A DNA stretch of 64,000 nucleotides, from contig NZ_LT630450.1 in assembly GCF_900116045.1 (NCBI RefSeq), positions 279,501 to 343,500 on the forward strand, given 5' to 3'. Shown in pieces: positions 2,391 through 48,604 of the stretch; position 1 is the first letter of the stretch; every line of letters starts with the position of its first letter. The stretch is from Desulfovibrio piger (lineage in GTDB: Bacteria > Desulfobacterota > Desulfovibrionia > Desulfovibrionales > Desulfovibrionaceae). A program made the translations under genes and the position numbers. The notes beneath the pieces are model-generated. The model saw only the letters and a list, made by a program, of their open reading frames with translations. It made no database searches and was not told where the DNA came from.

Positions 2391-2397
2391 TTGATTT

Positions 2398-3174: not shown

Positions 3175-3184
3175 GGGTTTCCTC

Positions 3185-3979: not shown

Positions 3980-3995
3980 CTCTCTCCCTCACAGT

Positions 3996-4111: not shown

Positions 4112-4117
4112 TCAGCG

Positions 4118-4146
4118 AATCTATCCGGCCCTGAGGCCGCTGTCAA
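4118..4146 (-). promoter_or_regulatory. Sigma70-type promoter, leftward
   Basis: On the minus strand TTGACA (4146-4141), a 17-nt spacer and TAGATT (4123-4118) make a strong vegetative promoter match. Transcription would start near 4111, after the purQ stop. Confidence 0.65.
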
Positions 4147-4170
4147 GCGGGAAGTCCCCTTCCTTATATA

Positions 4171-4983: not shown

Positions 4984-5185
4984 GCGGCAGGAGCCTCCTT
5001 GCAAGCGGTAGCCACAAAGGGCCACTATGGAAATGGAAAAAGAGACTACCTGCAAAGTTTATAATAGTCAATGCTGGTAAAATGATCCAGATTGGTGTAA
5101 AACCTCCCGATTGCGCGAGGGCGGCTCGTCCGCGTGCAGCACATGCGGTCCGGACCACGGTCCGCTGTATGTCATCAAAAGGTAG

Positions 5186-6835
<1,650 letters not shown>

Positions 6836-32295: not shown

Positions 32296-35200
32296 TTAGT
32301 CCTGAAAACGTTCCGGGGGATACTGGATGCTTGGGAAGCAGGTCAGTGAGCGGACGCGGTAACCGCGCCGTGTACAGACCAGCGGCGGGACACGTTCCAG
32401 GGCATGGGCAAGGGTCCCCCCGACGCCTATGGGCTCTTCCGGGAAGTCCTCGAAGCGCAGGCCGCATTCCAGCAAGGGCTGCAATGCCTGCGGCCGATAC
32501 CAGAACATGGTCCCGCCGGAGAAAAACTGCTCGCTGCGGCCATAGGTCGCCGGCAGTTCCATGCGCGCCAGCAGTCCCGTGATCATGCGGTATTCTTCGT
32601 TAGATCCATACAGGGGCACAGCGACATCCAGCATGACATCTCGTAGGCAGGTGTATATCGAGGGGAAGATACAGCCCAGCAAAGGATCCTTGGCAAATGC
32701 TGCCAGAGTCGTTCGTACGGCTTCCGGCCGCAGAAGGTTATCCAGCAGATAAGTGCGCCAGGAAGGACCGAATCCCATCTGGACGGATTCCTTGGCATGG
32801 ACATGGCAGCACAGGTCATATTCCTGGAGCGCCTGTCCAATCCCTGACAGCCAGGGAGCCACATCGCGGCCCCTGTTGGGGGTCTGTACTATGGTGACAG
32901 CCCTGGCCCGCGGCAGGACATCCTGATTGAACAACGTTTGAAGATGGCAGCGATCCGCAGCCTTCACATGCGTCACGAATACATCGAAAGGAACCGGAAA
33001 TTGCTGCAGGTAGCGGGAGAATTCCTGGGCAAGAGCGCCATTGTAGATGTGGATGTGCAGGCCTGTGCGCGGCGGGTCCTGACATGGGGGGCAGGGAAGG
33101 GAGGACAGAGGCAGGACATTGGCTGCATCGTCGAACCCCGTGGCGGTAAAGACCGTGGCGTGAGCCAGGTGACTGTCCAGCTTGTCTTCCAGCGACAGGG
33201 GGCGCTCCAGATAGACCGGGTCGGGGAAGATGATGTCGCGGAGCGCCGCGCGGTTGCTCAGGGGCTTTTTCTGGAACCACTGGCGGAAGATCTCCAGTGC
33301 GCCATCCGCACGGGCACCCGCCAGAAGCGGACTGTACTGGCCGAATCTGTCAAGTGTTGCCTGGACATAGTCCAGGCAGCTGGCATGCGCGGAGTCAAGG
33401 GCCCCGCGCATGGCGGGGGACGGTGCAAAGGCCTCATGGCGGGGATGGCCCTGCGCATCAAAATCGACCACCCCGCCGCAGCAGGGCGAGAACATCTCCT
33501 CAAGGATAAGGTGATACGGCGAATAGTCCTCCTCCGGTATGAGGAGAAAGGTCTTTGTCCCATTCTGCCTGTCCGCGGTATGGTTCGCTGTGGTTTGCCA
33601 GCAGTAGAGCTTGTCGCAGGGCTTGCCCGTGATGGCCGAGAGCGCCGTGGCGACGGAACCGGAATACCCCACATCGAAGACCAGGAAGCGCTGCGCATCT
33701 TTCGGGAAAACGGTGGCGTAGTACCGCCTGGCCCGTGCCTTGCGCCCTTCCATGAGACCGGTGATCTGCGGTTCAAGGCGTTTCAGGATGCCAAGGCATT
33801 GGTCCTGCTGCTTGCAAAAAGGCAGCGTCTGTTCTGCCGGAGACAGCAGAGCCAGCAGCGGCGCGGCGTCCGCTCCGAAATGCCCGCGCAGCAGGTCGGC
33901 CAGGGTATAGCTGTCCATGTCAGCGGCCACCTTGCGCGTACGGGCATAGTCAATGAAGGAATCCGCCAGAAAGGGGAAGTACGCCCGGCGTCCGGCATGG
34001 AAATAGACCCCTTCCGGTCCCCCCAGTTTTTCCTGCAGCACGGCATGGACACGGGAAGGCAGCCAGCCGTCGCGCGAGGCATAATAGACGCGTGGGCAGC
34101 CTTCCCGCATGGCGATGTCCCGTGCCCTGAGGCACAGGGCGGTCACCAGCGGGCCCAGGGCAAGGCGGGAGAAGGCCGCAGTGTCCGGGCAGCGATCCAG
34201 CGTTTCGGGCGAGCGTTCCGGCCTGGCAAAGATGCGGTCGATGGCCTGCCCCAGCAGCAGGCCCCACAGCGGCTCCTGCCGGGCCGTCGCGAGCAGCACG
34301 GCGGCCATATCCCCGCCGCGTGCGCGCAGCATCTGCCGGACAGAGGGGATATGCACGGCAGCCATGCCCCTGCCCAGCGGGATGGCCACATCACTGCGGG
34401 TGTCGTCGCCCATATGCAGCACATTGGCCGCATCCACCTGCTCTTTGCGCAGCATGATGTCAAAAAGGGCACCGGAGTCGCTTTTGCGGGCCTTGTGTTC
34501 TGCCGAGACGTAGACGGTCTCCACAGCCGCAAAACCTTTTTCATGCAGCACTTGGAGCAGGAACGAGGAAGGCAGGTACATATCGCTGACAGCGATGATG
34601 CGCTTGCCGGCAGCCCGGGCTGCGCGACACAGCTCGAGCATGCCGGGGCGTGGCTGCAACAGGGTACGCTCGCACAGCATCTCTTCATGCTTCAGGCGCG
34701 CGGCCGTTTCGGGGGAAAGGCCGTGCCTGCGCTGGATATGGGCATAGATGTCGTCCAGTGTGGCGTAAGGATCCCCCAGCTCTTTTTCCGCATGCCAGCG
34801 CAGGGCCACGAAATCCAGGTGGAGCTCCTCATTGACCCTGGCGGCGACGAGATGGAAGATGTCCCGTGGATCGTCGATGACCGGACGGGTCAGCAGGGTA
34901 TCGAAGATGTCGAGGCTCAGGACCCGCACGGAGGGGGCCTGCACCATGCGGACAAGCGAATCCTGGCTCAGGGGCGGCAGGGGGGGAGCCGGCGGCAGCG
35001 CGCAGGCCGGATCGGCAGAGGGCAGGGCAGCGGGGAGGATGCCAAGCCAGCGCTGCAGCGGCCGCAGGCAGATCCGCAAGGCGGACCGCGCCACGAACTT
35101 CAGGTTCCTGCGGTGCGCTGTCTCGATGCCTGCCCGCATGGGATAGAAAACTATCAGGTTGAACAGCCTGCCGCGTTTCCTGACGAGCAGGGGACCCGCC

Positions 35201-35319
35201 TTGATGACCTTGCCGAAAAAATACCAGGGGCCCAGACGCAGCGCGGAGAACCATTTCCGCCCGAAAACGATGAAGGAGGCGGGCAAAAGACAAAGGGCCG
35301 CCATGATGCGATGGAACAT
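32296..35319 (-). CDS. HAD hydrolase-RgpF fusion, rhamnan synthesis protein
   Basis: This 1007-residue protein joins three parts. A basic, hydrophobic N-terminus (about residues 1-120) comes first. A HAD-like phosphatase domain follows, with LSLDIFDTLLTRP, VSDMYLPSS and HMGDDTRSD (residues about 135-310). The C-terminal half resembles RgpF, used in rhamnan/rhamnose-glucose polysaccharide synthesis (LHIHIYNGALAQEF, VQTPNRGRDVAPWL, FFSGGTMFWYRP). dTDP-rhamnose genes are present 12 kb away. The substrate of the HAD part is unknown. Confidence 0.8.
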   Translation of the reverse strand: MFHRIMAALCLLPASFIVFGRKWFSALRLGPWYFFGKVIKAGPLLVRKRGRLFNLIVFYPMRAGIETAHRRNLKFVARSALRICLRPLQRWLGILPAALPSADPACALPPAPPLPPLSQDSLVRMVQAPSVRVLSLDIFDTLLTRPVIDDPRDIFHLVAARVNEELHLDFVALRWHAEKELGDPYATLDDIYAHIQRRHGLSPETAARLKHEEMLCERTLLQPRPGMLELCRAARAAGKRIIAVSDMYLPSSFLLQVLHEKGFAAVETVYVSAEHKARKSDSGALFDIMLRKEQVDAANVLHMGDDTRSDVAIPLGRGMAAVHIPSVRQMLRARGGDMAAVLLATARQEPLWGLLLGQAIDRIFARPERSPETLDRCPDTAAFSRLALGPLVTALCLRARDIAMREGCPRVYYASRDGWLPSRVHAVLQEKLGGPEGVYFHAGRRAYFPFLADSFIDYARTRKVAADMDSYTLADLLRGHFGADAAPLLALLSPAEQTLPFCKQQDQCLGILKRLEPQITGLMEGRKARARRYYATVFPKDAQRFLVFDVGYSGSVATALSAITGKPCDKLYCWQTTANHTADRQNGTKTFLLIPEEDYSPYHLILEEMFSPCCGGVVDFDAQGHPRHEAFAPSPAMRGALDSAHASCLDYVQATLDRFGQYSPLLAGARADGALEIFRQWFQKKPLSNRAALRDIIFPDPVYLERPLSLEDKLDSHLAHATVFTATGFDDAANVLPLSSLPCPPCQDPPRTGLHIHIYNGALAQEFSRYLQQFPVPFDVFVTHVKAADRCHLQTLFNQDVLPRARAVTIVQTPNRGRDVAPWLSGIGQALQEYDLCCHVHAKESVQMGFGPSWRTYLLDNLLRPEAVRTTLAAFAKDPLLGCIFPSIYTCLRDVMLDVAVPLYGSNEEYRMITGLLARMELPATYGRSEQFFSGGTMFWYRPQALQPLLECGLRFEDFPEEPIGVGGTLAHALERVPPLVCTRRGYRVRSLTCFPSIQYPPERFQD

Positions 35320-35386: not shown

Positions 35387-36694
35387 TTATTTCAGCCCGG
35401 GGTTTTCCCGGCCGATGTTGAAATAGAACCTGGCCCGAGCACTGTGATAGTCCGCCAGTGCCTGGCTGGCATCACGTTCAGCCTCTGTCAGGCGTACCTG
35501 GGCATCTACCAGGTCCGTGATGGTCCCGATATTGGTCATGTAGCGTTTTTGGGACATGGCGTAATTTTCCCGGGCCGAGTCGACGCCGTAGCGGGTCGTC
35601 GTGATGAGCTCCTTGGCGGCGTCCATGTCCAGCATGGCACGGATGACGTCGGTACGCGCCCCGGCCATGGCATCCTCAAAATCTTTTTGCAGCGCTTTTG
35701 CCCTGTTCCGCTCGGCAAGTGTGTTGAACACGGCGCTGCCGCCGCTGAACACGTCCCAGGTAAAATTGATGCCCGCGGCCCAGTAGTTGCGGGTATAGTC
35801 ATTGTAGCGCCGGTCGTCGAAGTCCCGGCTGTAGCGCATGTCGTCGTAGCTGGCATCGACGCGCGGCAGGAATTCCCCCATGGCGATGTGGACGTCCTTG
35901 AAAGCCACGGCCACGCTTTTCTGGGCCACGATCAGGTCGGGACGGCTGTAGAGAGCCGTCTTGATGGCCTGTTCCTCGGTATAGGTGACGGTACCGTCAA
36001 AGTCCTTGAGGCGTCCGGCATAGGTGACCCGTTCGTTGGGCGGGAATCCGAGATAGCGGTTGAGCTGCACTTCCGCATTGCGGATGTCGTTCCTGCAGCG
36101 GATGAGTTCCTGCTGGGCCCGGGAAAGCTCCACCCGGTTTTGCAGCACGTTGGCATAGGGGGCCATGTCCACACGGACGAAGGCTTCGGAGGCCTCCAGC
36201 TGTTTCTGGATGCGCCTTACCGATTCTTCCGCTGTGGAAAGGTTTTCACGGGCCTGCAGCAGCGCCAGGAACTGCAGCTGGACGTTGGTGATGAGTTCCA
36301 GGCGGGCCTGGCGGTGCCTGGCATCTTCCACATCCACCTGCAGCAGGGATTTCTGCACGTTGTTCAGGTGGGCAAAGCCGGCAAACAGGGAAAGCGTCAG
36401 TCGCCAGCCCTGCGTCCAGGTCTTGCTGCTCATGTCGTCGGAGCTGTAGGTCTGCACTTCTTTTTTGTTCTTGAGCACGCTGTGCGAGCCCACAAGGGAT
36501 ACCCGCGGCCAGAAGTAGCTCTGGGCCACGCCGACATTCATGCGCGCCTGTTCCAGCACCAGCAGTTTTGACTGGATGGTGGGGTTGACATCCAGAGCAC
36601 GGCTGACGGCCTGTTCCAGGGAAAAGCTGGCAGCATGGGGGCTGCCGGGCCACAGGCACACGAGAGCGGCGACCAGGATGGCCAAACGTTTCAT
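35387..36694 (-). CDS. TolC-like outer-membrane channel of the type I secretion system
   Basis: This 435-residue TolC-family protein forms the outer-membrane exit duct. A signal peptide is evident (MKRLAILVAALVCLWPGSPHA, cleavage after AHA/A). The mature part opens with SLEQAVSRALDVNPTI and shows the duplicated helical pattern, including the typical N-L-D-A type terminus DLVDAQVRLTEAERDA. It is the last gene of the secretion operon, 35 bases after the unknown envelope gene. Confidence 0.9.
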   Translation of the reverse strand: MKRLAILVAALVCLWPGSPHAASFSLEQAVSRALDVNPTIQSKLLVLEQARMNVGVAQSYFWPRVSLVGSHSVLKNKKEVQTYSSDDMSSKTWTQGWRLTLSLFAGFAHLNNVQKSLLQVDVEDARHRQARLELITNVQLQFLALLQARENLSTAEESVRRIQKQLEASEAFVRVDMAPYANVLQNRVELSRAQQELIRCRNDIRNAEVQLNRYLGFPPNERVTYAGRLKDFDGTVTYTEEQAIKTALYSRPDLIVAQKSVAVAFKDVHIAMGEFLPRVDASYDDMRYSRDFDDRRYNDYTRNYWAAGINFTWDVFSGGSAVFNTLAERNRAKALQKDFEDAMAGARTDVIRAMLDMDAAKELITTTRYGVDSARENYAMSQKRYMTNIGTITDLVDAQVRLTEAERDASQALADYHSARARFYFNIGRENPGLK

Positions 36695-36729: not shown

Positions 36730-37779
36730 TCAGCGTCCGTCCTTCTCAAGCACGCACAGCAGGTCCCGGCCGTCCTCCAGCGTCAGGAAAGGGCCCTGCA
36801 GGCTCCAGGTCCGTGTCTTGTCCAGCAGGGCGGCCAGCGCGTGCATGCCGATCATGGCGAGCATCTCCCTGTTTTCCCTGCCCGGGGAAAAGCGCAGCCC
36901 CCGGGCATCCGTCACATAGGGTACCTGCAGATAGAGCCCCCTGGATGCGATCTCCAGGCTGCCCGTGGTCCCGGAAGTGGCGGTGAACAGGCAGCTGGCC
37001 TGCGTCCCGTCTGCCAGCTCCAGGCGCCAGGGGTGCGCTTCCGTCGCGGCATGGAGGTCCGCCCCTGTTTCGATGGCCCCCCGCGGCAGGCGGGAGGAGG
37101 CGGACAGCACGCGGATGACCTCCAGTTTCCCGGGATGAAGACGGCATTCGGCCTCCACGAACACAGGCGACGGTCCCTGCAGCAGGGGACGGAGCAGGGG
37201 CGCGTCCCTGTCCAAAAGGAAGACCAGTCCGGCGCTGCCTTCCCGCAGCGTCGGCACGCCGTGCCGAACCTCCAGGATCCCCATGACCCTCACGGGGGCT
37301 GTGCCGGGCGCATCGAGGCGAAAGCGCACCCCCAGGCTGCGCTGGCCCTTCAGGGGCATGTCCGCGTACAGTGTCTGGCTGCGTCCCAGACTGAGCAGGC
37401 GCGACATGCCGTAGGCATTGTGCAGGTACAGCATGCCCCCCTGCCGCACCTGCAGCCAGCGGCCTGTGGTCGTGCGCCGCAGCCGGGGCTCCCCGGAAAT
37501 CTGGATGTCCTCGGAAAGTTCAAAAAAGTGCCGGTCCAGCAGGCGGAGGCACGCCGTATAGCGCAGGTCATGCTCCTGATGCCCCACCCTGTAGACCTGC
37601 CCGGCCTGCAGGGTGGGGAAGAGGACGGCCGCCGCGGCTGGCGCCGGAGAAAGGGCCTGGAGCAGCGCGCACCAGCACAGGGCAAGCAGGGCGCAGGCCT
37701 GCCGGCAGGCGGGGGGCACCGCAGCGGGCCGGCAGGGGCAGAGGCGGGCCCTGAAGCGGGCCCCCGGGAGGCAGCGCAT
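36730..37779 (-). CDS. Unknown exported protein in the T1SS operon, possible NlpE/META-like domains
   Basis: The 349-residue protein has a basic N-terminus and hydrophobic stretch (ACALLALCWCALLQALSPAPAAAA), consistent with a signal peptide. The middle region, ACLRLLDRHFFELSEDI and GRWLQVRQGGMLYLHNAYG, resembles the layout of NlpE-like proteins. The last 100 residues, ending SLQGPFLTLEDGRDLLCVLE, resemble a META/HslJ domain. These matches are by eye only. It sits between hlyD (six-base gap) and tolC, so it may be an accessory factor in secretion or surface assembly. Confidence 0.55.
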   Translation of the reverse strand: MRCLPGARFRARLCPCRPAAVPPACRQACALLALCWCALLQALSPAPAAAAVLFPTLQAGQVYRVGHQEHDLRYTACLRLLDRHFFELSEDIQISGEPRLRRTTTGRWLQVRQGGMLYLHNAYGMSRLLSLGRSQTLYADMPLKGQRSLGVRFRLDAPGTAPVRVMGILEVRHGVPTLREGSAGLVFLLDRDAPLLRPLLQGPSPVFVEAECRLHPGKLEVIRVLSASSRLPRGAIETGADLHAATEAHPWRLELADGTQASCLFTATSGTTGSLEIASRGLYLQVPYVTDARGLRFSPGRENREMLAMIGMHALAALLDKTRTWSLQGPFLTLEDGRDLLCVLEKDGR

Positions 37780-37785: not shown

Positions 37786-39216
37786 TCACTCCCGCAGGGC
37801 GCGATCCCAGCTTTTGAGCAGGGGCTCGAACATGTAATAAAGCACCGTGCGCTTCCTGGTGGTGATGAACACCGTGGCGGGCATGCCGGGCGAAAGGTAG
37901 AGCTGGGCATCCTTCAGGGCCTGGGGGTCGATGACCACATAGCAAAGATAGTAGGGCGTGGTCCCTGCGGCGGTCTTGTCCTCCAGGCGGTCGGCCGAGA
38001 TATAGGTCACCTTGGCCGGGATGTGGGGGACGATGCGCGTATCGAAGGCATCCAGCTGCACCAGGGCGTCCTGCCCGATGTAGACTTCGGTGATCTTGTT
38101 GATGGGAACATGGGTCTCCACGATGAGCGGGGTATCGTGGGGCACGATGTCCATCAGGGGCTCGCCCGGTCGGACGACACCGCCGCGGGAGTGGACCTTG
38201 AGGTCGACCACCTTGCCGCTGACAGGGGCCTTGACCTGCAGGCGTTTTTTGGCATCGCGCAGGGGGCGGATGCGTTCGCGGGTCTGGATGATGTCGTTTT
38301 CCAGTTTTCCGGCCTCACTGGTGGCTTCTTCCACAAAGCGGTTGCGCAGGTCTTCCATGCGCAGGCGCAATTCGGCGTCGCGCTGCTTCGTTTCGGCGAT
38401 GGCCTGGCGCAGGCGGCCCCGTTCGCCCATATGGCTGGCCAGGTTGCGTTCCAGTTCCAGGATCTGGGATTTTTCCAGATAGCGTTCCTTGTAAAGCTGG
38501 CGCTTGGCCCGCAGCTCCTCGTTGAGGGTGCCGATGATGGTGGTCTCGGCCCTGACCTGGTCCTCAAAGCCGCTCACCTGGGCCTGCAGCTGGGCTATCT
38601 GGGTCTCCAGCAGGGAAAGCTGGCCGCGCAGGGCCTCTTTGCGGGCCTGGAAGATCTTTTGCTCGTTGTCCAGCACGTCCGCGCTGTTCACCGTGCGGGC
38701 CAGCTCCACCAGGCCATCGGGCCAGACCAGCTCGTCGCTGAAAGATTTTTCGGCCAGGGCACGGGAGTGCGCGGCCCACTGGGCCACCAGCTGTTTTTGC
38801 AGCATGTTCTCCGAGGCATCCACCTGCACGGATTCCAGTTCCACCAGCACCTGGCCTTCCGCCACGTCCTGCCCTTCGCGCACGAGGATGGTGTCCACGA
38901 TGCCGCCTTCCAGATGCTGGACGGTCTTGCGCTCGCTTTCCACCTTGATCTTGCCGGGGGCGACCACGGCGCCGCTGATCTCGCCCCAGAAGGCCCAGGC
39001 GCCCAGCACGCCGAAAAAGAGCAGGATCACCGCCAGCCCCTGGCGTATGATGCTGCGGGGATCCTCGATGGCGCTGTTTTTCCTGCTGCCGGGGTCGCGG
39101 TCCTCACCGTGGCCGGTGCCGGCCGTGCCGGCCGGGACTTTGGCCGGGGTGATGCGGGCGATGGTGCGCCCTGTGGTCTCCAGGGGCGTATTTTCGTTGG
39201 GGGACGTATCAGGCAT
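37786..39216 (-). CDS. HlyD-family periplasmic adaptor of type I secretion
   Basis: The 476-residue membrane fusion protein links the ABC transporter to TolC. A cytoplasmic N-terminus of about 58 residues precedes one transmembrane helix (residues about 60-78, LAVILLFFGVLGAWAFW). A lipoyl-like half motif (KTVQHLEGGIVDTILVREGQ), a long periplasmic coiled coil (about 120-330) and the second lipoyl half follow. It overlaps the ABC gene by eight bases. Confidence 0.93.
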   Translation of the reverse strand: MPDTSPNENTPLETTGRTIARITPAKVPAGTAGTGHGEDRDPGSRKNSAIEDPRSIIRQGLAVILLFFGVLGAWAFWGEISGAVVAPGKIKVESERKTVQHLEGGIVDTILVREGQDVAEGQVLVELESVQVDASENMLQKQLVAQWAAHSRALAEKSFSDELVWPDGLVELARTVNSADVLDNEQKIFQARKEALRGQLSLLETQIAQLQAQVSGFEDQVRAETTIIGTLNEELRAKRQLYKERYLEKSQILELERNLASHMGERGRLRQAIAETKQRDAELRLRMEDLRNRFVEEATSEAGKLENDIIQTRERIRPLRDAKKRLQVKAPVSGKVVDLKVHSRGGVVRPGEPLMDIVPHDTPLIVETHVPINKITEVYIGQDALVQLDAFDTRIVPHIPAKVTYISADRLEDKTAAGTTPYYLCYVVIDPQALKDAQLYLSPGMPATVFITTRKRTVLYYMFEPLLKSWDRALRE

Positions 39217-40975
39217 TGCCGCCGGCCTCCTGCGTTTTTTGCAGGGCTTCCTGCTGTTTCTGCAATGCCTGCTGCCGGGCGAGCTTTTCCTGCTGCACGC
39301 GGGCCTGTGCGGCCTGTTCCTGCTGGTGGCGCATGGCGGCCAGTTTTTCCAGCACGGCCTGACGGGGACCGGAAAGGGCTATCTGGCCCTCCTGCATGAG
39401 GATGATGTTGTCCACGATGTTGAGGATGCTGGGCTTGTGGGTGACCAGCACCACGGTGGCCTTGCGCTGCTTGAGGTTCAGCACGGCGCGGGCCAGCTGC
39501 TGCTCGCCCTCTTCGTCCAGGTTGGAATTGGGCTCGTCCAGCACCACAAGGCGGGGATCGCCGTACAGAGCGCGGGCCAGCCCGATGCGCTGGCGCTGGC
39601 CGCCGGAAAGGGCCGCGCCGTGTTCGCCTATCTGGGTGTCATAGCCTTTGGGCAGGCCCAGCACCATGGTGTGGACACCGGCCATCTGCGCGGCGGCGAT
39701 GACTTTCTGGCTGTCCACGTCGCCCATGCGAGCGATGTTCTCGGCCACGGAACCCGCAAAAAGTTCCACATCCTGCGGCAGATAGCCGATGTAGGGGCCC
39801 AGCTTCTCGGAGTCCCAGCTGTGGATATCGGCGCGGTCGATGCGCACCTTGCCGGCGGTGGGCGCCCAGATGCTGAGCAGCAGCTTGCACAGGGTGGACT
39901 TGCCGGCGGCACTGGGGCCGATGATGGCCAGGCTCTGCCCGGCAGGCAGGCGGAACGAGACCCCCCGGACAAGGGGGCGGCCGTTGATGGTCAGGAACAG
40001 GTTTTCCGCCGTCAGCTCGCCGGCGGGGGCGGGCAGATCCATGACAGGCGGGGCGGGAGGCGTGTCCAGCAGCTTTTTCAGATGCCTGTAGGAGCTGCGG
40101 GCATCCAGCGATTGCTTGTAGGTGGCCATGGCCTGGTCGATGGGCGCCAGGGCGCGGCCCATGACGATGGAGGCCGCGATCATGACTCCGGCCGTGGACT
40201 CGTGCATGACGGTCAGATAGGCGCCCACGGCATAGATGGCCACCTGCAGGCCGGTGCGCAGGGATTTGCTCACGGCCCGCAGCAGGCCGGCCTTGTGGCT
40301 GGCGCGGGTCTGCAGGCCGATGACGGCGTCATTGAGGCGGCGCCAGCGCGCGGTCACATGACCCACCATGCCCATGGCGCGCACGATGCTGGCATTGCGC
40401 AGGGCCGCGCCGGTGAACCCGGCGGCCATGGCATTGAGGCGGGTGGCGTTCTCCAGGCGGGTGCGGGTCAGGCGTTCGGTCAGCACGCCCAGGATGAAGA
40501 CGATGACCCCGCCCCCCACGGCCACCCAGCCCAGGGCCGGATGCAGCACGAAGATCAGGGCAAAGTAGATGGGCATCCACGGCAGGTCGAAAAAGGCGAA
40601 CACGGCGTTGCCGCCAAGAAAATTGCGCAGCTGCTGCACGTCGCGCAGGTTGCCCTGGCTGGCGGCCCCGCCCGGAGCGGCGGCGGCATGCCTGAGGTTC
40701 ATGCCGAGCACGGTGGCGCTGAGCATGTTGTCGAAGGCGATGCCCGCCCGCACCAGAAGGCGGGAGCGTATCCACTCCAGCAGGGCCAGCACGACCAGGC
40801 AGATGACGGCGGCAAGAGTGATGACGGCGAGGGTGGAGAGGTTGTAGCTGGTCAGGACCTTGTCATAGACCTGCAGCATGTAGATGGAAAAGGTCAGTTG
40901 CAGGATATTGATGAACATGCTGAAAAAAAAGGCATATCCGAAAAAATACCTGCACGAGCGCAAAAATTCTTGCAT
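39209..40975 (-). CDS. Type I secretion ABC transporter, permease/ATPase
   Basis: This PrtD-like exporter of 588 residues energises one-step secretion of proteins with C-terminal signals. A membrane domain with six helices (about residues 15-310) precedes the ABC domain with GPSAAGKST, LSGGQRQRIGLARAL and VVLDEPNSNLDEEG. There is no N-terminal peptidase domain, as expected for RTX-type substrates. An Ala/Gln-rich tail follows residue 545. Its likely substrate is the RTX protein encoded on the other side of the invertible segment. Confidence 0.93.
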   Translation of the reverse strand: MQEFLRSCRYFFGYAFFFSMFINILQLTFSIYMLQVYDKVLTSYNLSTLAVITLAAVICLVVLALLEWIRSRLLVRAGIAFDNMLSATVLGMNLRHAAAAPGGAASQGNLRDVQQLRNFLGGNAVFAFFDLPWMPIYFALIFVLHPALGWVAVGGGVIVFILGVLTERLTRTRLENATRLNAMAAGFTGAALRNASIVRAMGMVGHVTARWRRLNDAVIGLQTRASHKAGLLRAVSKSLRTGLQVAIYAVGAYLTVMHESTAGVMIAASIVMGRALAPIDQAMATYKQSLDARSSYRHLKKLLDTPPAPPVMDLPAPAGELTAENLFLTINGRPLVRGVSFRLPAGQSLAIIGPSAAGKSTLCKLLLSIWAPTAGKVRIDRADIHSWDSEKLGPYIGYLPQDVELFAGSVAENIARMGDVDSQKVIAAAQMAGVHTMVLGLPKGYDTQIGEHGAALSGGQRQRIGLARALYGDPRLVVLDEPNSNLDEEGEQQLARAVLNLKQRKATVVLVTHKPSILNIVDNIILMQEGQIALSGPRQAVLEKLAAMRHQQEQAAQARVQQEKLARQQALQKQQEALQKTQEAGGNA

Positions 40976-41088
40976 GTGGGGGCATATCCGGCGGTAGTGC
41001 CGCCCCCCGGGAAAGGACGCCTGTTGTGCAGCGTGGGGACCATGGAAGACCTGGCAGGGAGGCCCCCGGGCGACGGTTTGCAGGGCGC

Positions 41089-41117
41089 ACTATACGCAGG
41101 AAGCCCCTGATTGTCCA
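41089..41117 (-). promoter_or_regulatory. Fixed promoter of the type I secretion operon
   Basis: On the minus strand TGGACA (41117-41112), a 17-nt spacer and TATAGT (41094-41089) form a good promoter, about 110 bases before the ABC gene. It lies outside the invertible segment, so the exporter could keep a basal expression level in both orientations. The rest of 40976-41293 is AT-rich near 41160-41220 and shows no gene. Confidence 0.55.
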
Positions 41118-41293
41118 GAAGGCAAACCAACGCCAAAAAGACCACAAGAAAAATGCTTGCGGCCGCAACAAAATAATGGCATCAAAAAAATTAAAAAAGT
41201 TATACGGTTATCTCTTTTTTTATCTCTCCTGGAACAGGTTGCCGGAGCATTCCGGGCAGTGCAAACCGTCGTTGCTGCCTGCCAGGGCAGCGT

Positions 41294-41323
41294 TGTCTCA
41301 GCGGGGTACACCCCATTGAGGCA
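41294..41323 (+). repeat. Left crossover site of the invertible segment
   Basis: The half-sites are TGTCTCAGCGGGGT (41294-41307) and ACCCCATTGAGGCA (41310-41323), flanking AC at 41308-41309. Reverse-complementing one half shows 11 of 14 positions identical to the other. It is the exact reverse complement of 42102-42131. Confidence 0.85.
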
Positions 41324-41342
41324 ATCCAGACGAGTTGATTCA

Positions 41343-41370
41343 ATTATCCTACATTGCGAACGATTGTCAA
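41343..41370 (-). promoter_or_regulatory. Outward-facing promoter inside the invertible segment
   Basis: On the minus strand TTGACA (41370-41365), a 16-nt spacer and GATAAT (41348-41343) make a strong sigma70 promoter in an AT-rich patch. It starts about 13 bases inside the left site and reads outward through it toward the secretion operon. After inversion it would read outward through the right site toward the RTX gene. Confidence 0.75.
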
Positions 41371-41411
41371 TTTTTTTTTACTCCCCCAAATAGTGGCAGC
41401 AATCCGGGTGG

Positions 41412-42020
41412 TTACAGGAGCTCATCCATGTCCGGCAGCACTTTTGCCGTACAGGAGAGCCCGCGGCAGCGCGCGTATTGCAGATAGCGGTAGGCTGTCT
41501 GGCGCGAGATGCCGAACTCCCGGGCCAGCCCCAAGATGTTCTCTTTGTTTTTGAGGGCCCGTGTTGCCAGCAGGGCGATCTCGTCCTCGGTAAGGCGTTT
41601 TTTGCTTCCTTTGTATTTGCCGCGCTGTTTGGCCAGGGCGATGCCCTCGCGCTGGCGCTCCCGGATGAGGGCCCGCTCGAATTCGGCCACGGCGCCGATG
41701 ATCTGCAGGTGCAGGCGCTGGAAGGGCGAGCTTTCGCCGCTGAATATCAGATTTTCCTTGTAGAATTTAACAGTCACGTTCCTGTCCGCCATGTCTTCCA
41801 GTATGGCCAGCAGGTCTTGCAGGCTGCGTGTCAGGCGGTCGATGCTGTGCACATGCAGCATGTCCCCTGCCTGCAGGGCACGCAAACAGGCCTGGAATTC
41901 CGGCCTGTCCATGTCTTTCCCGCTCGTCTTGTCCATAAACACCCTGTCCAGCGCCACCCCTTCCAGCTGCCTGTCCGTACGCTGCCCGCAGCTGCTGACA
42001 CGAATATATCCGATGTTCAC
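41412..42020 (-). CDS. Small serine recombinase (DNA invertase/resolvase family)
   Basis: The 202-residue protein starts at GTG 42020 (MNIGYIRVSSCGQRTDRQ). The catalytic Ser is in YIRVSS (position 9), and the recombinase arginine region SIDRLTRSLQDLLAIL is intact. The long E-helix region AEFERALIRERQREGIALAKQRG leads to a C-terminal Hin-like helix-turn-helix (ILGLAREFGISRQTAYRYLQ). Its size fits invertases and resolvases rather than large integrases. It is encoded entirely within the segment bounded by the inverted repeats, so it would be carried along on inversion. No accessory factor such as Fis is visible here. Confidence 0.92.
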   Translation of the reverse strand: MNIGYIRVSSCGQRTDRQLEGVALDRVFMDKTSGKDMDRPEFQACLRALQAGDMLHVHSIDRLTRSLQDLLAILEDMADRNVTVKFYKENLIFSGESSPFQRLHLQIIGAVAEFERALIRERQREGIALAKQRGKYKGSKKRLTEDEIALLATRALKNKENILGLAREFGISRQTAYRYLQYARCRGLSCTAKVLPDMDELL

Positions 42021-42101
42021 GTGAGACCCGTTTCAAAAGCTGTAAATCCCTTTGTTGTCTGCCGGGTATGGTGTGTTTCCGGCATGCTGCCGCCGCCTGC
42101 C

Positions 42102-42131
42102 TGCCTCAATGGGGTGTACCCCGCTGAGACA
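42102..42131 (-). repeat. Right crossover site of the invertible segment
   Basis: The half-sites are TGCCTCAATGGGGT (42102-42115) and ACCCCGCTGAGACA (42118-42131), with centre GT at 42116-42117. It is the exact reverse complement of the left site at 41294-41323. Confidence 0.85.
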
Positions 42132-42498
42132 GTTCCGCAGTGATGCATTCAGGGTGCGTCATGGCTGCCACAGGCAGCACCTGCCGCACCTGCCCATATC
42201 TGCGGATGGCACTCCCGTTTGCGGCACAAGGCCGCAGCTGCGGGAGCGGAGGGAGGCATACCCTGTGTCATCCGTACCGGTGCCGTGCACCGGAGGAGGG
42301 ACGTCCCCGCACGTGCGGCCGGACAACATGTCCGGGACCGACGTGGCTAGGTACCTCCATGCTGGTGACGAGGCCGCACACTGCCGCCGGGACCCGGGCG
42401 GCCGGCGGTTCGTCCCTTCTGGGCCGCATCCGCACAGGGCGGATGCGGGATGTGCCGACAGGCACAAAACCTTTTTTCTTATCCTCCGGAGGATAACA
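42132..42498 (+). promoter_or_regulatory. Long hairpin-rich leader of the RTX protein gene
   Basis: These 367 bases between the right crossover site and the RTX start contain no supported gene and no good sigma70 promoter that I can find. They are GC-rich and full of hairpins: CCGCATCCGC/GCGGATGCGG (42424-42448, 10 bp) and TGTGCC/GGCACA (42451-42466). The second is followed by a T-run at 42472-42477, so it could act as an attenuator or stabilise the messenger. Confidence 0.55.
42479..42496 (+). promoter_or_regulatory. 18-bp perfect palindrome covering the RTX ribosome-binding site
   Basis: TTATCCTCCGGAGGATAA is perfectly self-complementary and includes the GGAGG site two bases before ATG 42499. 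As RNA it could fold with stem TTATCC/GGATAA and bury the Shine-Dalgarno; as DNA it could be a protein-binding site. Confidence 0.7.
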
Positions 42499-45315
42499 AT
42501 GGCTAATCCCAAATGGTTTGATGCTGACGTCTACATGCAAAACAAGCTGGCCCAGATGCAGGCAAGCGATCCTGACTACAGCTGGGGCGATCTGCTTGAG
42601 GCGTTCGCTGGTGCCGGTTATGTGGGTCCCGAAGGCTACTATGCGCACTTCGTGCAGTTTGGCGCTGCCGAAGATGTGGCCCCCAATGCCTACTTCGACG
42701 CCGATGAGTACTATGCCGCCAAGGCCAAACAGTACTATGAGGAAGAGCTGAAGCAGGAGTTCACCGGCAGTGAATACCAGATCGCCACTGTAAAGACCCT
42801 CATCAACGCGGCGGGTTACAACGCCTGGACCCACTACCAGCAGTTCGGCTCCGCCGAAGGCGTGAACCCCTCCAACGCCTTTGATGCTTCCGACTACTGC
42901 GCCGCCAAGGCCGAAGCCATGAACAATGCCGGGCAGAAGGCCCCTGACGGTACCGACTGGACCGCCGAAAAGATCGCCAAAGCCATCGACGATGCCGGCA
43001 TGAGCGTGCTGGAACACTACCTGACCTACGCCGGTACCGGTGAAGGCGAAGTGGCCGCCGGTTCCACCTATCCTGTGTCCGAAGACGAGCAGGTGGTGGT
43101 GAGCAAGCCCGGTGAGACCTTTACCTTGACTGCCGGGGTAGACAACCTTGTTGGCACTGCTGGCGATGATATTTTCAGCGCAGTCAACGATGATGCTGAT
43201 AAACCCGTTTTGGGGGCTTTTGACTCCATCGACGGTGGCGCTGGCAATGATACGCTGAATATTACTGATACGGCGGCGGCTGCTGATGCAGGAAAGTTCT
43301 CGTTCCCTGCCGATTTCTCCATGAAGAGCGTGGAAAATGTCACTATTGCCACTACGGGAGCGATCGAAATTGACCTTTCCGCTAATGCTGACGTGGTATC
43401 CATCAAGGGGGATGCTCGTGGTGAGGCCGCCAGCACTGTCACGGCCTCCGGCAATACGGATGTTGCCCTGACGGTGGCTGGGCAGGCTGCGGCGACTGTG
43501 GATGGCGGCAAGGCTGTGTCCGTGACCGCTGGTACCGGTACTACGAAGGTCACGGGCGACAGTCTGACAAGCGTCACCATCAAGGGCGGCGCTACCGCGA
43601 CGATCAGCAATGATAAGGATGCTGATGACGACGACAAAGGGACGACGCTGACGTCTGTGGTGCTCGATGGCGTCGATGGCACTACCACTATTAAGGCTGA
43701 TGGCCTGACCGACGTGACCGTTAAGGGGGCTACGGAAAACGCGAATACTGTGACCATCACCAACAGCACGGAAGAACATTCCCTGACTGTTCATGTGGAT
43801 GGTACGGGCTACAAGGCCGACGGAAAATCTGAGGTTCAGACTGTCATCAAGGATGCGAGTGCGACGTCCATGACCGTGGAAGCCTCTGGTGAAAAGAGCA
43901 ACCTGGCTCTTACCGGTTCCACGAAGCTTGAAAATCTTACGATCACGGGTGATGCTGCACTGACGCTCAAGGCCGAAGACCTGGCTGCCCTGAAGGCTAT
44001 CAATGGCTCTGCTGCCAATGGCGCTTTGATCCTCGGCGACCTGAACGAGGCGACTGTGGACGTGCAGACCGGCAGCGGGAACGATAGCTTCACCATCAAT
44101 GCTACGGATAAAGTGACGGTCGATGCCGGTGCCGGTAATGACGTCGTTACCCTTGGGGCTGTTATTGCTGCCGGCTCCAGCATTGATCTGGGTGCTGGTG
44201 ATGACACTCTGCTGTCTGCTAGCGGTTCTGTTGCGGCCTCTACCAAGGATGCCACTACGGTTATCGATGGCGGTGATGGCTTCGATAGCGTGTCTGCCTC
44301 TCTGATCAATGCCGGTAATGCGGCCCAGTTCCACAATTTTGAAGCCCTGGATATCACTGCTAAAGTGACTGGGTTTGACTTCGATCTGCTGACGAATTCC
44401 GCCATTGAAGCCCTGACTCTTTCTGGCAGCAATAGTGAAGCAACCATAAATAACGTGGCTGCTGGAGTGGATCTGCGCGTTTCCGGTAATAATACGGCGA
44501 TGACCACCATCAATGTGAAAGATGCTGCTAGCGGCGATGCCGATGCCTTTAGCGTGACCCTGAACGAAACAGCTGATGCGGCGGCTACCGCACAGCTTAC
44601 CGTCAATGGCATCGAGAACCTGACCGTGGAAGCCACGGGGGCGGGTGATGGCGATAATACGCTGCAGGTAACAGACGATGCGCTGCAGAGCCTGACCATC
44701 ACCGGCAGCCAGAAGCTGACCCTGAGCTTTAGTGCCTCCGGCTCTGCGGGTGATGGAGTTAGCCTCATCGATGGTTCTGCCGCTACTGGCGATCTGACTA
44801 TCAAGACCAACGGTGTCACTGCCGACAGCAAGCTTGGTTTGACCGTGAAGACCGGTTCCGGTGCCGATAGCATCACCTTGGCCGGCAAGGCCACTGTGGA
44901 TGCCGGCGCAGGCGATGACACGATTACCTCTTCCGCGCAGGGTGGCACGTTCACCGGTGGCGATGGCAAGGATACCTTTAACGTCGCGGCCGCAAAGGGC
45001 AGCGATAATATGGTGACCATCACTGATTTCGTTGCAGGTACCGACAAGCTGGCTTTTGCTGACAAGGGGACTGAAACCTTCGATAAGGCAATCGTTAGCG
45101 GTGCTCAGTCGCTGGAAGATGCTTTGAATGCCGCTGCTGCGGGTGATGGCTCTGTGAATGGTGCTCTTTCCTGGTTCCAGTACGGTGGTGATACCTACAT
45201 CGTCCAGGATCTCTCTACAGATGCCACTTTCCAGAGTGGGGATATCGTCGTCAAGCTGGTCGGCGAGCATGACTTGTCTGATATGACTGTGGCAGATTTT
45301 AACTTTGCCTCCTAG
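42499..45315 (+). CDS. Large RTX/S-layer-like protein, probable type I secretion substrate
   Basis: The 938-residue acidic protein has no N-terminal signal peptide. Residues 6-190 hold three tandem repeats of about 62 residues (WFDADVYM, YFDADEYYAAK, AFDASDYCAAK starts, each with a Y-x-x-F-G-x-x-E/D-V/G core). A long Thr/Ala/Asp-rich beta region follows with RTX-type calcium motifs (GTAGDDIF, DGGAGNDTLNI, DAGAGNDVVTLG, GGDGKDTFNV). The C-terminus (ITDFVAGTDKLAF to DLSDMTVADFNFAS) resembles type I secretion signals of S-layer-like proteins. The start at 42499 has an ideal GGAGG; a longer upstream frame would cross the crossover site. Base and codon use are more AT-ending than in neighbours. 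Confidence 0.85.
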   Translation: MANPKWFDADVYMQNKLAQMQASDPDYSWGDLLEAFAGAGYVGPEGYYAHFVQFGAAEDVAPNAYFDADEYYAAKAKQYYEEELKQEFTGSEYQIATVKTLINAAGYNAWTHYQQFGSAEGVNPSNAFDASDYCAAKAEAMNNAGQKAPDGTDWTAEKIAKAIDDAGMSVLEHYLTYAGTGEGEVAAGSTYPVSEDEQVVVSKPGETFTLTAGVDNLVGTAGDDIFSAVNDDADKPVLGAFDSIDGGAGNDTLNITDTAAAADAGKFSFPADFSMKSVENVTIATTGAIEIDLSANADVVSIKGDARGEAASTVTASGNTDVALTVAGQAAATVDGGKAVSVTAGTGTTKVTGDSLTSVTIKGGATATISNDKDADDDDKGTTLTSVVLDGVDGTTTIKADGLTDVTVKGATENANTVTITNSTEEHSLTVHVDGTGYKADGKSEVQTVIKDASATSMTVEASGEKSNLALTGSTKLENLTITGDAALTLKAEDLAALKAINGSAANGALILGDLNEATVDVQTGSGNDSFTINATDKVTVDAGAGNDVVTLGAVIAAGSSIDLGAGDDTLLSASGSVAASTKDATTVIDGGDGFDSVSASLINAGNAAQFHNFEALDITAKVTGFDFDLLTNSAIEALTLSGSNSEATINNVAAGVDLRVSGNNTAMTTINVKDAASGDADAFSVTLNETADAAATAQLTVNGIENLTVEATGAGDGDNTLQVTDDALQSLTITGSQKLTLSFSASGSAGDGVSLIDGSAATGDLTIKTNGVTADSKLGLTVKTGSGADSITLAGKATVDAGAGDDTITSSAQGGTFTGGDGKDTFNVAAAKGSDNMVTITDFVAGTDKLAFADKGTETFDKAIVSGAQSLEDALNAAAAGDGSVNGALSWFQYGGDTYIVQDLSTDATFQSGDIVVKLVGEHDLSDMTVADFNFAS

Positions 45316-45342
45316 TCCCCATCCCTCCCACTGACGGATACA

Positions 45343-45370
45343 GGCGCCCTCCCGTCCCCGGGGGGGCGCC
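45343..45370 (+). terminator. Hairpin after the RTX gene
   Basis: GGCGCCC pairs with GGGCGCC across a C/G-rich loop, 28 bases after the stop. Only two T residues follow, so it is a weak terminator or a messenger-stabilising structure. Confidence 0.5.
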
Positions 45371-45441
45371 TTCACAAAGCGGCGCCCCTGTGTCCCGCCG
45401 GGGCAGAGCGGCGCCGCGGCATATTTGGCAAGATCGTGCAT

Positions 45442-46353
45442 ATGTCCTCTCCTGCTGTCAGCATCATCGTGGCCAGCTACAACTATGAGCAATGGCTGCC
45501 CCAGGCCCTGCAAAGCGCGCTGGACCAGTACGTTGCGGATTTTGAACTGCTGGTTGTGGACGACGGTTCCGCGGACGGCTCCCCGGCCGTGGCGCGGGAG
45601 TTCGCCGCGCGGGATGCCCGCGTGCGCGTCCTCACCCATGCGGACGGCGGCAACCACGGCCTGCCCGCCACCCTGGCGCTGGGGCTGGCCGCCGCGCGCG
45701 GCCAGTGGACGGCCTTTCTGGAAGCCGATGACGTCTGGCTGCCGGACACCCTGTCCCTGCGGCTGGCCGCCGCGGCCGGCACGGATGCCGGGGTCATCTT
45801 CAACGATGTGGAGCTCTGGCCCATGCCCGGCGCGGCCACAGGCTGGTTCACGGGCTATGTGCCGCGCGTCATGGCCGGACATGCCCGCCGGGGCGGGACA
45901 GGGCAGCGGGACTTTTCCCTGTGCGGGCCCATGCTGGTGGAAAATGTCATCCCCACCTTTTCCTGCGCCATGGTGCGCACGGAGCTTTTGCGTGCCTGTG
46001 ACTGGCAGTCGCCGGTGCCGCGCTGGACGGACTGGTGGCTGTGGTGCCAGCTGGCCTGCCGCACCCGCTTTTTCTTTGTGCCGCACAGGCTCGTGCGCTG
46101 GCGCCTGCATGCGGGCAGCCAGCATCACGGCGTGGGCGGCGGCTACCTGCACGATTACGCCCGCATGGGCCGGGGCCTGGCCCGTCTGCTGGGGCCGGAG
46201 CTCACGGCCGGGGGCCGGCGGCGCTGGCTGTGGTACCTGCGCCTGCCCGCCCCGCTGCGGCTGGCGGTACGCCTGGGCCGCATGGTCATGTACCAGGGCC
46301 CGCGCAGGAGCCTGCGGCAGGTGGCGGAGCGTCTGGGCCGGCGCGCACGGTGA
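45442..46353 (+). CDS. Family 2 glycosyltransferase
   Basis: The 303-residue GT-A type transferase begins SPAVSIIVASYNYEQWL. It carries the nucleotide-sugar motif VVDDGSADGS near residue 38 and the acidic FLEADDVWLPD near residue 91. The C-terminus is basic and hydrophobic, suggesting membrane attachment. The ATG at 45442 is taken as the start; a GTG six bases earlier is possible, and neither has a strong ribosome site. It may glycosylate surface glycan or even the neighbouring RTX protein; neither is shown. Confidence 0.88.
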   Translation: MSSPAVSIIVASYNYEQWLPQALQSALDQYVADFELLVVDDGSADGSPAVAREFAARDARVRVLTHADGGNHGLPATLALGLAAARGQWTAFLEADDVWLPDTLSLRLAAAAGTDAGVIFNDVELWPMPGAATGWFTGYVPRVMAGHARRGGTGQRDFSLCGPMLVENVIPTFSCAMVRTELLRACDWQSPVPRWTDWWLWCQLACRTRFFFVPHRLVRWRLHAGSQHHGVGGGYLHDYARMGRGLARLLGPELTAGGRRRWLWYLRLPAPLRLAVRLGRMVMYQGPRRSLRQVAERLGRRAR

Positions 46354-46502
46354 CGCACCCGCGCGGATCTGTCCCCCGCAGCGTCCGGGTGGTATCTTCT
46401 GGGCACAAACATGTTCCAGAATATGGCATGCAGGCCAAAAAAATGACCGCAGGGGCAGAAAAAACGCTTTTTTGTGTCACATGACTTACAGGTGGTGGAC
46501 GG

Positions 46503-47000
46503 ATGGATGCCATGCAGGATCTTGGTGAGCGTATCCGGCGGGTACGCGGGTACACGTCACAGGAGGCCTTTGCCCGGCAGCTCGGTATCAGCAAGGGGGC
46601 ACTGGGCTGTTACGAGCGGGGCGTCAACTGCCCCAATGTGGAAGTCATCCTGAATATCTCCCGCTTGCGCCACGTCAGTCTGGAGTGGCTCATGACCGGC
46701 AAAGGCGACATGGCGGATGCGCCGGGCCCCGAGGAGCCCGCTCCGGCAAGCTGCGCGCCGGGACTGGCTGCACAGCCTGCGGGCGGCGAGGCCGGGGAAC
46801 TGCTGCGCCGTCATTGCGCCTGGCTGCAGCAGCGGCTGGATGCCATGGAGGAGGAACGCCGCGACCTGAGCCGCGAGAACAGGCTCCTCTGGCAGCGCAC
46901 CGCCGACCTGGGGCAACGCCTTGCGCGGCTGGAACAGGCCGGCGGGGAAGAGGACGGGGCCGCGGCGCAGGATGGTGCGGCATCGTCCCGCAAGATGTGA
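46503..47000 (+). CDS. Xre-family regulator with C-terminal coiled coil
   Basis: The 165-residue protein has an N-terminal HTH of the Xre/Cro type (LGERIRRVRGYTSQEAFARQLGISKGALGCYERG; residues about 6-40). A Pro/Ala-rich linker and a Glu/Arg-rich coiled coil (about 95-145) follow. It is likely a dimeric repressor. The 149 bases upstream contain AT-rich and palindromic patches (AACATGTT, GGCATGCA type) that could be an operator, but no site can be defined. It may control the rhamnose genes downstream or the surface genes upstream. Confidence 0.8.
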   Translation: MDAMQDLGERIRRVRGYTSQEAFARQLGISKGALGCYERGVNCPNVEVILNISRLRHVSLEWLMTGKGDMADAPGPEEPAPASCAPGLAAQPAGGEAGELLRRHCAWLQQRLDAMEEERRDLSRENRLLWQRTADLGQRLARLEQAGGEEDGAAAQDGAASSRKM

Positions 47001-47091
47001 CGCGCAACGGCCCGGCCAAGGCGCCCTGACGGCCTGGCTGTGCCGGCTGGAGGGGCCCCGTCGGGAAAGGTGAAGAAGGAGAACATTCGAC

Positions 47092-48126
47092 ATGCAGGTG
47101 CTGTATCTGGTCACCGGGGGCTGTGGTTTCATCGGTTCCTGTTTCGTGCTGCGGGCCCGTGCCGCCGGCATCCCCGTCATCGATCTGGACAGGCTGACCT
47201 ACTGCGGCAATCCCGAGAACCTTGCCCCCCTGGATCATGATCCGGGCCATGTGCTGGTGCAGGGCGACATAGTCAACAGGGACCTGGTGGCGTACCTGCT
47301 GCGCACGCACCGTCCTTCGGCCATCGTCCATTTTGCCGCCGAAAGCCACGTGGACCGTTCCATCAGCGATCCCGGCGTCTTTGTGCGCACCAACGTGATG
47401 GGGACCGCCAACCTGCTGCATTGCGCCCTGGACTACTGGCAGGGCCTTGCCGGGCAGGAAAGGCAGGCCTTCCGGTTCCTGCATGTCTCCACCGACGAGG
47501 TCTTCGGCTCCCTGGGGCCGGATGACGCGCCTTTCCGGGAGGATACCCCCTACGCCCCCAACAGCCCCTATTCCGCCAGCAAGGCGGCCAGCGACCATCT
47601 GGCGCGGGCCTTTAGCCATACCTACGGCCTGCCCGTGCTGGTGACCAACTGTTCCAACAATTACGGGCCGCGCCAGTTCCCGGAAAAGCTCATCCCGCTG
47701 TTCATCTCCCGCGCCCTGGCCGGGGAGCCCATGCCCCTGTACGGGTCGGGGCGGAACGTGCGCGACTGGCTGTATGTGGAGGAGCATTGCGAGGCGCTGG
47801 AGCGCGTGCTGCGGCATGGCCTGCCCGGGCGCAGCTACAATATCGGCGGCAATTGCGAGCGCAGCAACCTTGAGCTGGTGGACAGCCTGTGCCGCGCGCT
47901 GGACAGCGAGCGCCCCCGGCAGGCCGGCTCCTACCGGGATCTGGTGTGCCGTGTGGCCGACAGGCCCGGCCATGACTGGCGCTATGCCATGGATACCGCA
48001 CGCATGCGGGACGAACTGGGCTGGCAGCCGCGTGTGGGGCTGGAGGAAGGCATGCTCCGTACCGTGCGCTGGTATCTGGAGCACGAAGGCTGGATGGAGC
48101 GGGCCCGCCGGCGCGCGGCCCGATGA
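47092..48126 (+). CDS. rmlB: dTDP-glucose 4,6-dehydratase
   Basis: This is the second enzyme of dTDP-L-rhamnose synthesis. The 344-residue extended SDR has the NAD-binding motif VTGGCGFIGS at residues about 7-16, the substrate segment STDEVFGSLG, and the catalytic YSASKAASDH (Tyr-x-x-x-Lys). An AAGGAG site precedes the ATG. Product: dTDP-4-keto-6-deoxyglucose for RmlC. Confidence 0.96.
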   Translation: MQVLYLVTGGCGFIGSCFVLRARAAGIPVIDLDRLTYCGNPENLAPLDHDPGHVLVQGDIVNRDLVAYLLRTHRPSAIVHFAAESHVDRSISDPGVFVRTNVMGTANLLHCALDYWQGLAGQERQAFRFLHVSTDEVFGSLGPDDAPFREDTPYAPNSPYSASKAASDHLARAFSHTYGLPVLVTNCSNNYGPRQFPEKLIPLFISRALAGEPMPLYGSGRNVRDWLYVEEHCEALERVLRHGLPGRSYNIGGNCERSNLELVDSLCRALDSERPRQAGSYRDLVCRVADRPGHDWRYAMDTARMRDELGWQPRVGLEEGMLRTVRWYLEHEGWMERARRRAAR

Positions 48127-48604
48127 GATTTTCCCGGCGATGATGCACCGGGGGCGGCATGCGGACCGGGCAGGCCTCCCTGTCAGTTGCCCGGTCCCCG
48201 GTGCGGAGTGCGGCCGGCCGTGCCGGTCGTGCACAGGCGTGTGTCCGCCGGGATGCCGCATGCCGCAGGCAGGGGGCAGCCATGCTCCCTGCCGTCCCCG
48301 CGGGGAGTGCCGCGTGGCATGTTCTCGGTGTGTCCGTCTCTCCCATGCCGTCTGCTGTACCACCTTCCGCGGCAGCGGTGTGATGCGGCACCCGGGCACG
48401 GCACCGGGCCGTACTCCAGCCGCAAGGCCGGTTTTCCGGGCTGCGGAGCCGCCGCGGGCTCACCGTGCCCGGGCCGTGCATGCCGCACGGCGGCAGGGGG
48501 GAGGAGTGGCCCCCCTGCCTTTGGGGCGCGGCAGCCCGGCACAACGCGGCATCCGCCCCTGACGATGGCCCGGCAGGGCCGTTTTTAGCGAGCGAGGCTC
48601 CCTC
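48127..48604. other. GC-rich non-coding gap within the rml cluster
   Basis: No gene is supported in these 478 bases; open frames on both strands are low-complexity by-products of high GC. A perfect 10-bp stem (GGACCGGGCA/TGCCCGGTCC, 48163-48197) follows rmlB closely, and a terminator-like hairpin ends just before rmlA. Confidence 0.5.
48567..48586 (+). terminator. Terminator-like hairpin before rmlA
   Basis: GGCCC-GGCA-GGGCC is followed by G and five T, ending 18 bases before rmlA. It either ends the rmlB transcript or acts as an attenuator for rmlACD. Confidence 0.6.

Follow-up and report, generated by a model that had tools for sequence, protein, structure and literature searches.

The window, by which we mean the whole 64,000-nucleotide stretch of Desulfovibrio piger DNA that was analysed, contains an 838 bp segment bounded by inverted repeats at 41294-41323 and 42102-42131, with a minus-strand type I secretion operon to its left and the gene for a 938-aa protein to its right. 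The features of this locus are as follows, each with its coordinates in the window, its strand and the basis of the assignment.

35387..36694, minus strand: outer-membrane efflux protein, TolC-like (PF02321; TIGR01844 119.6 bits, under the cut-off of 225)
36730..37779, minus strand: 349-aa protein in the exporter operon, no family match (domain profile searches)
37786..39216, minus strand: type I secretion adaptor, HlyD type (TIGR01843, 375.6 bits)
39209..40975, minus strand: type I secretion ABC transporter, PrtD type (TIGR01842, 675 bits)
41089..41117, minus strand: promoter-like TGGACA-17-TATAGT, the exporter operon's own, outside the segment (promoter scan)
41140..41164, minus strand: terminator-like hairpin and T-run between switch and exporter (sequence scan)
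41294..41323, plus strand: left recombination site, 30-bp inverted repeat, exporter side (repeat search, genome pattern scan; homologous arms in related genomes)
41343..41370, minus strand: promoter-like TTGACA-16-GATAAT, 11/12 to consensus, pointing outward over the left site; putative switched promoter (promoter scan, conserved TTGACA position)
41412..42020, minus strand: serine recombinase, 202 aa, GTG start, within the invertible segment (open reading frame, domain profiles, tree)
42102..42131, minus strand: right recombination site, 30-bp inverted repeat, S-layer side (repeat search, genome pattern scan; homologous arms in related genomes)
42132..42498, plus strand: S-layer leader, 367 nt, with a ribosome-binding site within TCCTCCGGAGGATAAC (simple scans)
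42499..45315, plus strand: RsaA-like S-layer protein, 938 aa; putative switch target (phmmer, AlphaFold2 model, PDB fold search)

The perfect 30-bp inverted repeats reported in the initial annotation were confirmed by an inverted-repeat search, in which the arms are 30 nt each, 100% complementary and separated by 778 nt, and they are the longest among the 57 inverted pairs found in 38000-46000. Each arm is built, as had also been described, from two 14-bp half-sites, TGTCTCAGCGGGGT and TGCCTCAATGGGGT, which are alike at 11/14 positions and flank an asymmetric dinucleotide, here AC. With up to three mismatches allowed, the inner 24 bp occur at only two places in the window and in none of 100 shuffles, and the same pattern matches one of 61 genomes, the 2.81 Mb source genome, where the two arms are the sole copies. 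A scan of 40900-42600 against Rfam gave nothing beyond one snoRNA match, which at E 0.26 and far under the gathering score was rejected as a chance match.

The segment enclosed by these repeats carries a complete 202-aa open reading frame in which a PF00239 domain (127.5 bits) is followed by an HTH_7 domain at 23.6 bits, marginally below the cut-off of 23.8 in the profile search, and the small serine recombinase that had been read from the sequence is thereby substantiated. The coding strand of this gene has a run of six A residues at 41598-41603 (around codons 140-141), in the linker between the catalytic and DNA-binding domains, and frame changes occur near this run in several metagenomic recombinase clusters (e.g. 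P0016, P0011, P0024 and P0066); slippage that switches the recombinase, decay and sequencing error are all possible origins of such a frame change.

Behind the 3′ end of the recombinase gene lies the promoter-like sequence of the segment, which is identified as a promoter by its consensus and conserved position only. A promoter scan of 40900-42600 returned two promoter-like sites against 0.8 expected, the second being that of the exporter operon. Simple scans of five S-layer leaders, the window's included, found no promoter-like site in any of them, and in two of the related loci described below (L023 and L024) the leader is only ~75 nt long.

The 938-aa protein has no Pfam domain at E 0.001, and its residues 285-926 match Caulobacter RsaA in a phmmer search (E 1e-24). 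An AlphaFold2 model built from 31 sequences has a mean pLDDT of 84.7 and a pTM of 0.65, and its six best matches in the PDB are all RsaA chains, with E-values from 6e-22 to 1.5e-17 and TM-scores of 0.40-0.56. The model thus supports membership of the RsaA fold family, with a loose global superposition and with detailed geometry beyond what it can bear. Genes for rhamnan synthesis (PF05045) and glycosyltransferases (PF00535) lie on either side of the locus at 32296-35319 and 45436-50046, together with dTDP-rhamnose pathway genes recognised by eye, and could be the source of a polysaccharide that anchors the S-layer.

A close relative of the recombinase (E-value up to 1e-40) is present in 79 of 348 genomes of the order, source genome included; the loci of relatives that were examined, 30 stretches and 40 further ones that partly overlap, are a subset of these matches. 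The window and four other genomes carry the complete cassette, that is, a flanking inverted pair with the core GGGTACAC, and one more genome shows the exporter-side arm.

G138, locus L023: Candidatus Desulfovibrio intestinavium, complete
G165, locus L024: uncultured Desulfovibrio, complete; other copy L053
G236, locus L028: Candidatus Mailhella excrementigallinarum, complete
G018, locus L083: complete, segment of ~3 kb
G238, loci L030/L101: Candidatus Mailhella merdavium, exporter-side arm only; the contig starts inside the recombinase

At 6/6 loci a TTGACA lies 59 or 60 nt inside the exporter-side site core and the intervening sequence varies; in L101 the TTGACA counted, at 575-580, was read by eye and a nearer one is also present. 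Only the window has a good -10 element, that of the other five loci being weak, and in all six assembled loci the promoter faces the exporter. A close match to the exporter ABC gene occurs in 23 of 288 genomes of the family, comprising the six cassette loci and 17 others; the stretches checked in these 17, some of which are short or cut by contig ends, contained no recombinase and no S-layer match. Relatives of the 349-aa exporter-operon protein are encoded in both Mailhella operons and in G164. Beside the cassette of L028, two convergent genes (2069-5470) match the S-layer protein of the window at 38% and 40%.

The expectation that the repeats would be conserved wherever the recombinase is present was borne out in the five related genomes with the same locus, but not around most of the other recombinase relatives examined. 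Weaker repeat pairs (scores 12-18) do lie beside other recombinases, and in none of them do inverted copies of the GGGTACAC core flank the recombinase. The flanking-repeat scan behind this comparison missed L024, where the open reading frame starts past the repeat, and L083, with its ~3-kb segment, both of which were found by reading or by the core motif, and larger segments or other cores could escape it.

Several variations on this arrangement were seen in passing. The segment of G018 (L083 3994-5675) has gained a PIN-domain gene, a 78-aa open reading frame and a Fic-family gene besides the recombinase, which indicates that the cassette can carry cargo. A related recombinase of the same genome (L082 5009-5584) adjoins a gene that by eye is flagellin-like, and does so without GGGTACAC sites. 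The second serine recombinase of the source genome has near it a 26-bp repeat pair (24/26 matching, 81 bp spacing, GTGTAC inside; L167 2096-2228), and similar pairs occur in two relatives (25/27 at L010 2096-2229 and 27/27 at L011 2202-2377); the arms are themselves nearly palindromic, and a pair of this type could be a small invertible promoter or a resolution site.

All six assembled genomes thus present one orientation, and it is among metagenomic proteins that both are found. In the protein representing cluster P0021, the recombinase shifts frame close to its end and the translation continues across the promoter and the repeat into the S-layer-side flank. Its residues 129-285 give a single collinear match to the inverted arrangement and not to that of the window. 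A search with this tail yielded nine proteins from 33 candidates. In P0021, P0241, P0242, P0243 and P0244 the recombinase-3′ end of the segment runs into the S-layer flank, which is the inverted state; P0244 was included although its first 38 residues are foreign. The orientation of the window is represented by P0247, which joins a near-identical recombinase-3′ end (39/43 residues in common with P0243) to the exporter flank, and by P0245 and P0248, in which the S-layer flank adjoins the recombinase-5′ end. P0246, where only ~6 residues beyond the repeat are informative, and P0024, which came from the first search and matches the flank at 25/49, are of this last type on weaker evidence. P0245 and P0241 share 117/126 residues of the repeat and S-layer flank and carry opposite ends of the segment.

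The tally is therefore five inverted-type clusters and five window-type clusters, two of the latter on the weaker evidence, and these numbers are not frequencies, since the query was the tail of an inverted-type protein and favoured that form. The inverted-type clusters hold 35 member sequences, with eight contigs listed, and their representatives were the sequences read. Left out of the tally were P0007, whose extension could not be assigned, and P0017 and P0020, which fuse the recombinase to the exporter-side flank at internal points and may be switch-locking deletions or assembly chimeras. The opposite orientation, whose absence from relatives had been named beforehand as a refutation test, is thus present in metagenomic contigs of close relatives. 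That closely related strains carry both states, with the change located at the repeat, indicates on this sequence evidence that the segment flips in nature, between strains of close kin.

We consider it highly probable that the locus is a self-contained promoter-inversion switch that turns the S-layer gene ON and OFF and leaves the exporter on its own promoter. The recombinase would flip the 838-bp segment by recombining the two 30-bp sites at their asymmetric AC. With the segment inverted, transcription from the promoter would cross the site and enter the leader and the RsaA-like S-layer gene (ON). In the deposited orientation it would head for the exporter and should stop at the terminator that precedes the operon's own promoter, giving an S-layer that is OFF and an exporter that is unaffected. 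In this scheme the flipping is presumably catalysed by the segment's own recombinase, and the switched promoter is taken to be functional and the sole promoter of the S-layer gene. The phase switch with its recombinase inside the flipped DNA, as first proposed, is supported by the two orientations and the conserved repeats; that it is active, with flipping presumed to occur within one clone, is what we infer from a flip seen between strains. Six of six assembled genomes have the presumed OFF orientation, which would be expected about once in 32 under free flipping, so that flipping may be rare or biased. Further points against this explanation are the weak -10 element in the five other loci and the apparent frameshifts in several metagenomic recombinase clusters (P0011, P0013, P0014, P0016, P0019, P0021, P0022 and P0024).

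An improbable alternative, and the one that survives best, is that a single promoter is shared, serving the exporter operon in one orientation and the S-layer gene in the other, so that exporter and cargo alternate. It is in keeping with a promoter that points at the exporter operon in every assembled locus (6/6), and with the two Mailhella loci, where no pair of hairpin and exporter promoter was recognised. Against it, a promoter-like TGGACA-17/18-TATA element of the exporter's own is present in the window, L023 and G018, and near-consensus in L024, behind a terminator-like hairpin; this hairpin is strong in the window and L024, but less so in L023 and G018. An exporter with its own promoter-like site behind such a hairpin favours S-layer ON/OFF switching with an insulated exporter.

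It is more doubtful still that the element is decaying and that the two orientations are old rearrangements left after switching had ended. The apparently frameshifted clusters would fit this, as would the more distant relatives of the recombinase that occur in phage records and Tn3-family transposons, but the perfect 30-bp repeats, the intact recombinase with its large clusters at 90% identity (P0001 with 420 member sequences, P0002 with 282), the fixed distance from promoter to site and the same S-layer and exporter neighbourhood in several species speak for upkeep. Least probable of all is that the opposite-orientation proteins are assembly chimeras, as P0017 and P0020 might suggest, since the representatives of five clusters carry the inverted junction with the change at the repeat, and 30-bp repeats, being shorter than usual reads, are normally bridged in assembly.

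With the promoter-inversion switch as the preferred reading, the origin of its recombinase can be considered. The larger tree has rows for 61 of 63 loci (L033 and L167 dropped out), and the constraint trees use 29 of 62 rows, picked by hand, among which Hin is absent. The six switch recombinases are grouped in a single clade (ultrafast bootstrap 100, SH-aLRT 99), and the 29-row tree places Gin, PinE, L012 and L036 in a clade of their own (100/98) that contains none of the six. In the same tree the switch clade sits among other recombinases in a group with moderate support (87/84), and the deep branching is poorly resolved. Beyond its close sisters, the recombinase is ~55-65% identical to other Desulfovibrionaceae recombinases, 56% to a Tn3-family plasmid recombinase, 37% to Gin and 36% to PinE. 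It is therefore outside the Gin/Pin clade and by identity nearer to Tn3-type resolvases. Constraining the switch clade to be sister of the whole Gin group cost 9.3 log units and was not rejected (p-AU 0.0565 in the 29-row tree), whereas grouping it with one plasmid TnpR was rejected (p-AU 0.0009, same tree). A third constraint, which joined it to Gin and PinE minus their relatives, gave p 3.7e-11, and is not a fair sister test because L012 and L036, which belong with Gin, were left out of the group.

No recombinase of at least 60% identity was found among the best 20 of at least 5000 plasmid records or the best 20 of 374 phage records, so that among the matches listed the recombinase of the cassette is absent from these elements at close range. 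Membership among the Tn3-family resolvases that reside in transposons was rejected, as the neighbours are exporter and S-layer genes and the sites are inverted 30-bp repeats and not direct ones. The genome gave no stand-alone Fis, its five matches all staying below the cut-off of 99 bits (31 for the best) and lying in frames of 361-566 residues.

Comparison with known systems shows which parts of this switch are familiar. In Salmonella the hin gene lies inside the invertible segment with the promoter behind it, and the Hin sites are 26 bp long. The Hin/fljBA system is outlined in its literature as two inverted sites with a segment promoter that reaches its target in one orientation (PMC9368917, PMC3798978), a segment of 966 bp (PMC5903667) and a dependence on Fis and an enhancer (PMC3798978). 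The locus described here is like it in having two inverted sites and one segment promoter that would reach the target in one orientation, and unlike it in its 30-bp sites, its S-layer target, a recombinase outside the Gin/Pin group (Hin itself being absent from the tree) and a genome with no Fis match above the cut-off. Anatomy and probable function are thus Hin-like, and the recombinase lies outside the Gin/Pin clade.

In the sap locus of Campylobacter fetus the promoter-bearing element inverts in a RecA-dependent manner, and several S-layer alleles are exchanged by recombination. Like that locus, ours has an S-layer gene next to a dedicated transporter; unlike it, there is one gene, with 30-bp sites and an encoded serine recombinase. 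For sap, the literature describes S-layer genes with a dedicated transporter, one promoter transcribing the neighbouring sap gene, and phase variation (PMC3887049). Mpi of Bacteroides fragilis, as summarised in PMC4747536, is a serine recombinase that inverts the promoters of surface structures at 13 regions. Enzyme class and type of target are shared with our locus, whereas here the only two sites of the genome flank the recombinase, and the Mpi model NF009949 scores 54 bits on it against a cut-off of 272.

TnpR of Tn3-family transposons acts on directly repeated, complex res sites. The recombinase studied here is 51-56% identical to transposon-linked plasmid recombinases among the matches listed, above the values for Gin and PinE, but its sites are simple and inverted and the segment contains no transposase. 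Caulobacter RsaA is secreted via a PrtD-type exporter, and an RsaA-like gene next to a PrtD-type exporter is likewise what is found here; we know of no invertible promoter for RsaA, in contrast to the candidate invertible promoter at this S-layer gene.

Invertible promoters and recombinase-carrying segments are already described in the portions of the literature consulted (PMC9368917, PMC3798978, PMC5903667, PMC4747536, PMC8987985, PMC3887049). The search covered titles and opening lines of abstracts of openly available papers, and among these there was no report of this switch in Desulfovibrio or of an S-layer controlled by a serine invertase; a large survey of gut invertible promoters, outside this scope, may have detected it earlier. 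Within the literature searched, then, the anatomy is known, and the recombinase lineage, the target and the taxon appear to be new. Tentatively, and with somewhat more doubt than confidence, we propose that the Desulfovibrionaceae acquired a Hin-like switch independently, assembled around a resolvase-like recombinase that is not of the Gin/Pin clade, that it works free of Fis to turn an entire RsaA-type S-layer ON and OFF, and that switch, S-layer gene and exporter genes have stayed together as a module in both Desulfovibrio and Mailhella, the promoter keeping a fixed distance of 59-60 nt from the crossover.

Should the recombinase turn out to depend neither on descent from the Hin/Gin line nor on Fis, the Hin architecture would have more than one origin, and a cassette this compact could serve for studying how a resolvase-like enzyme inverts DNA without a Fis enhancer. 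S-layers face phages, host immunity and surfaces, and with a flip switch on the S-layer, cells with and without the coat could live side by side in a single population of these sulfate reducers.
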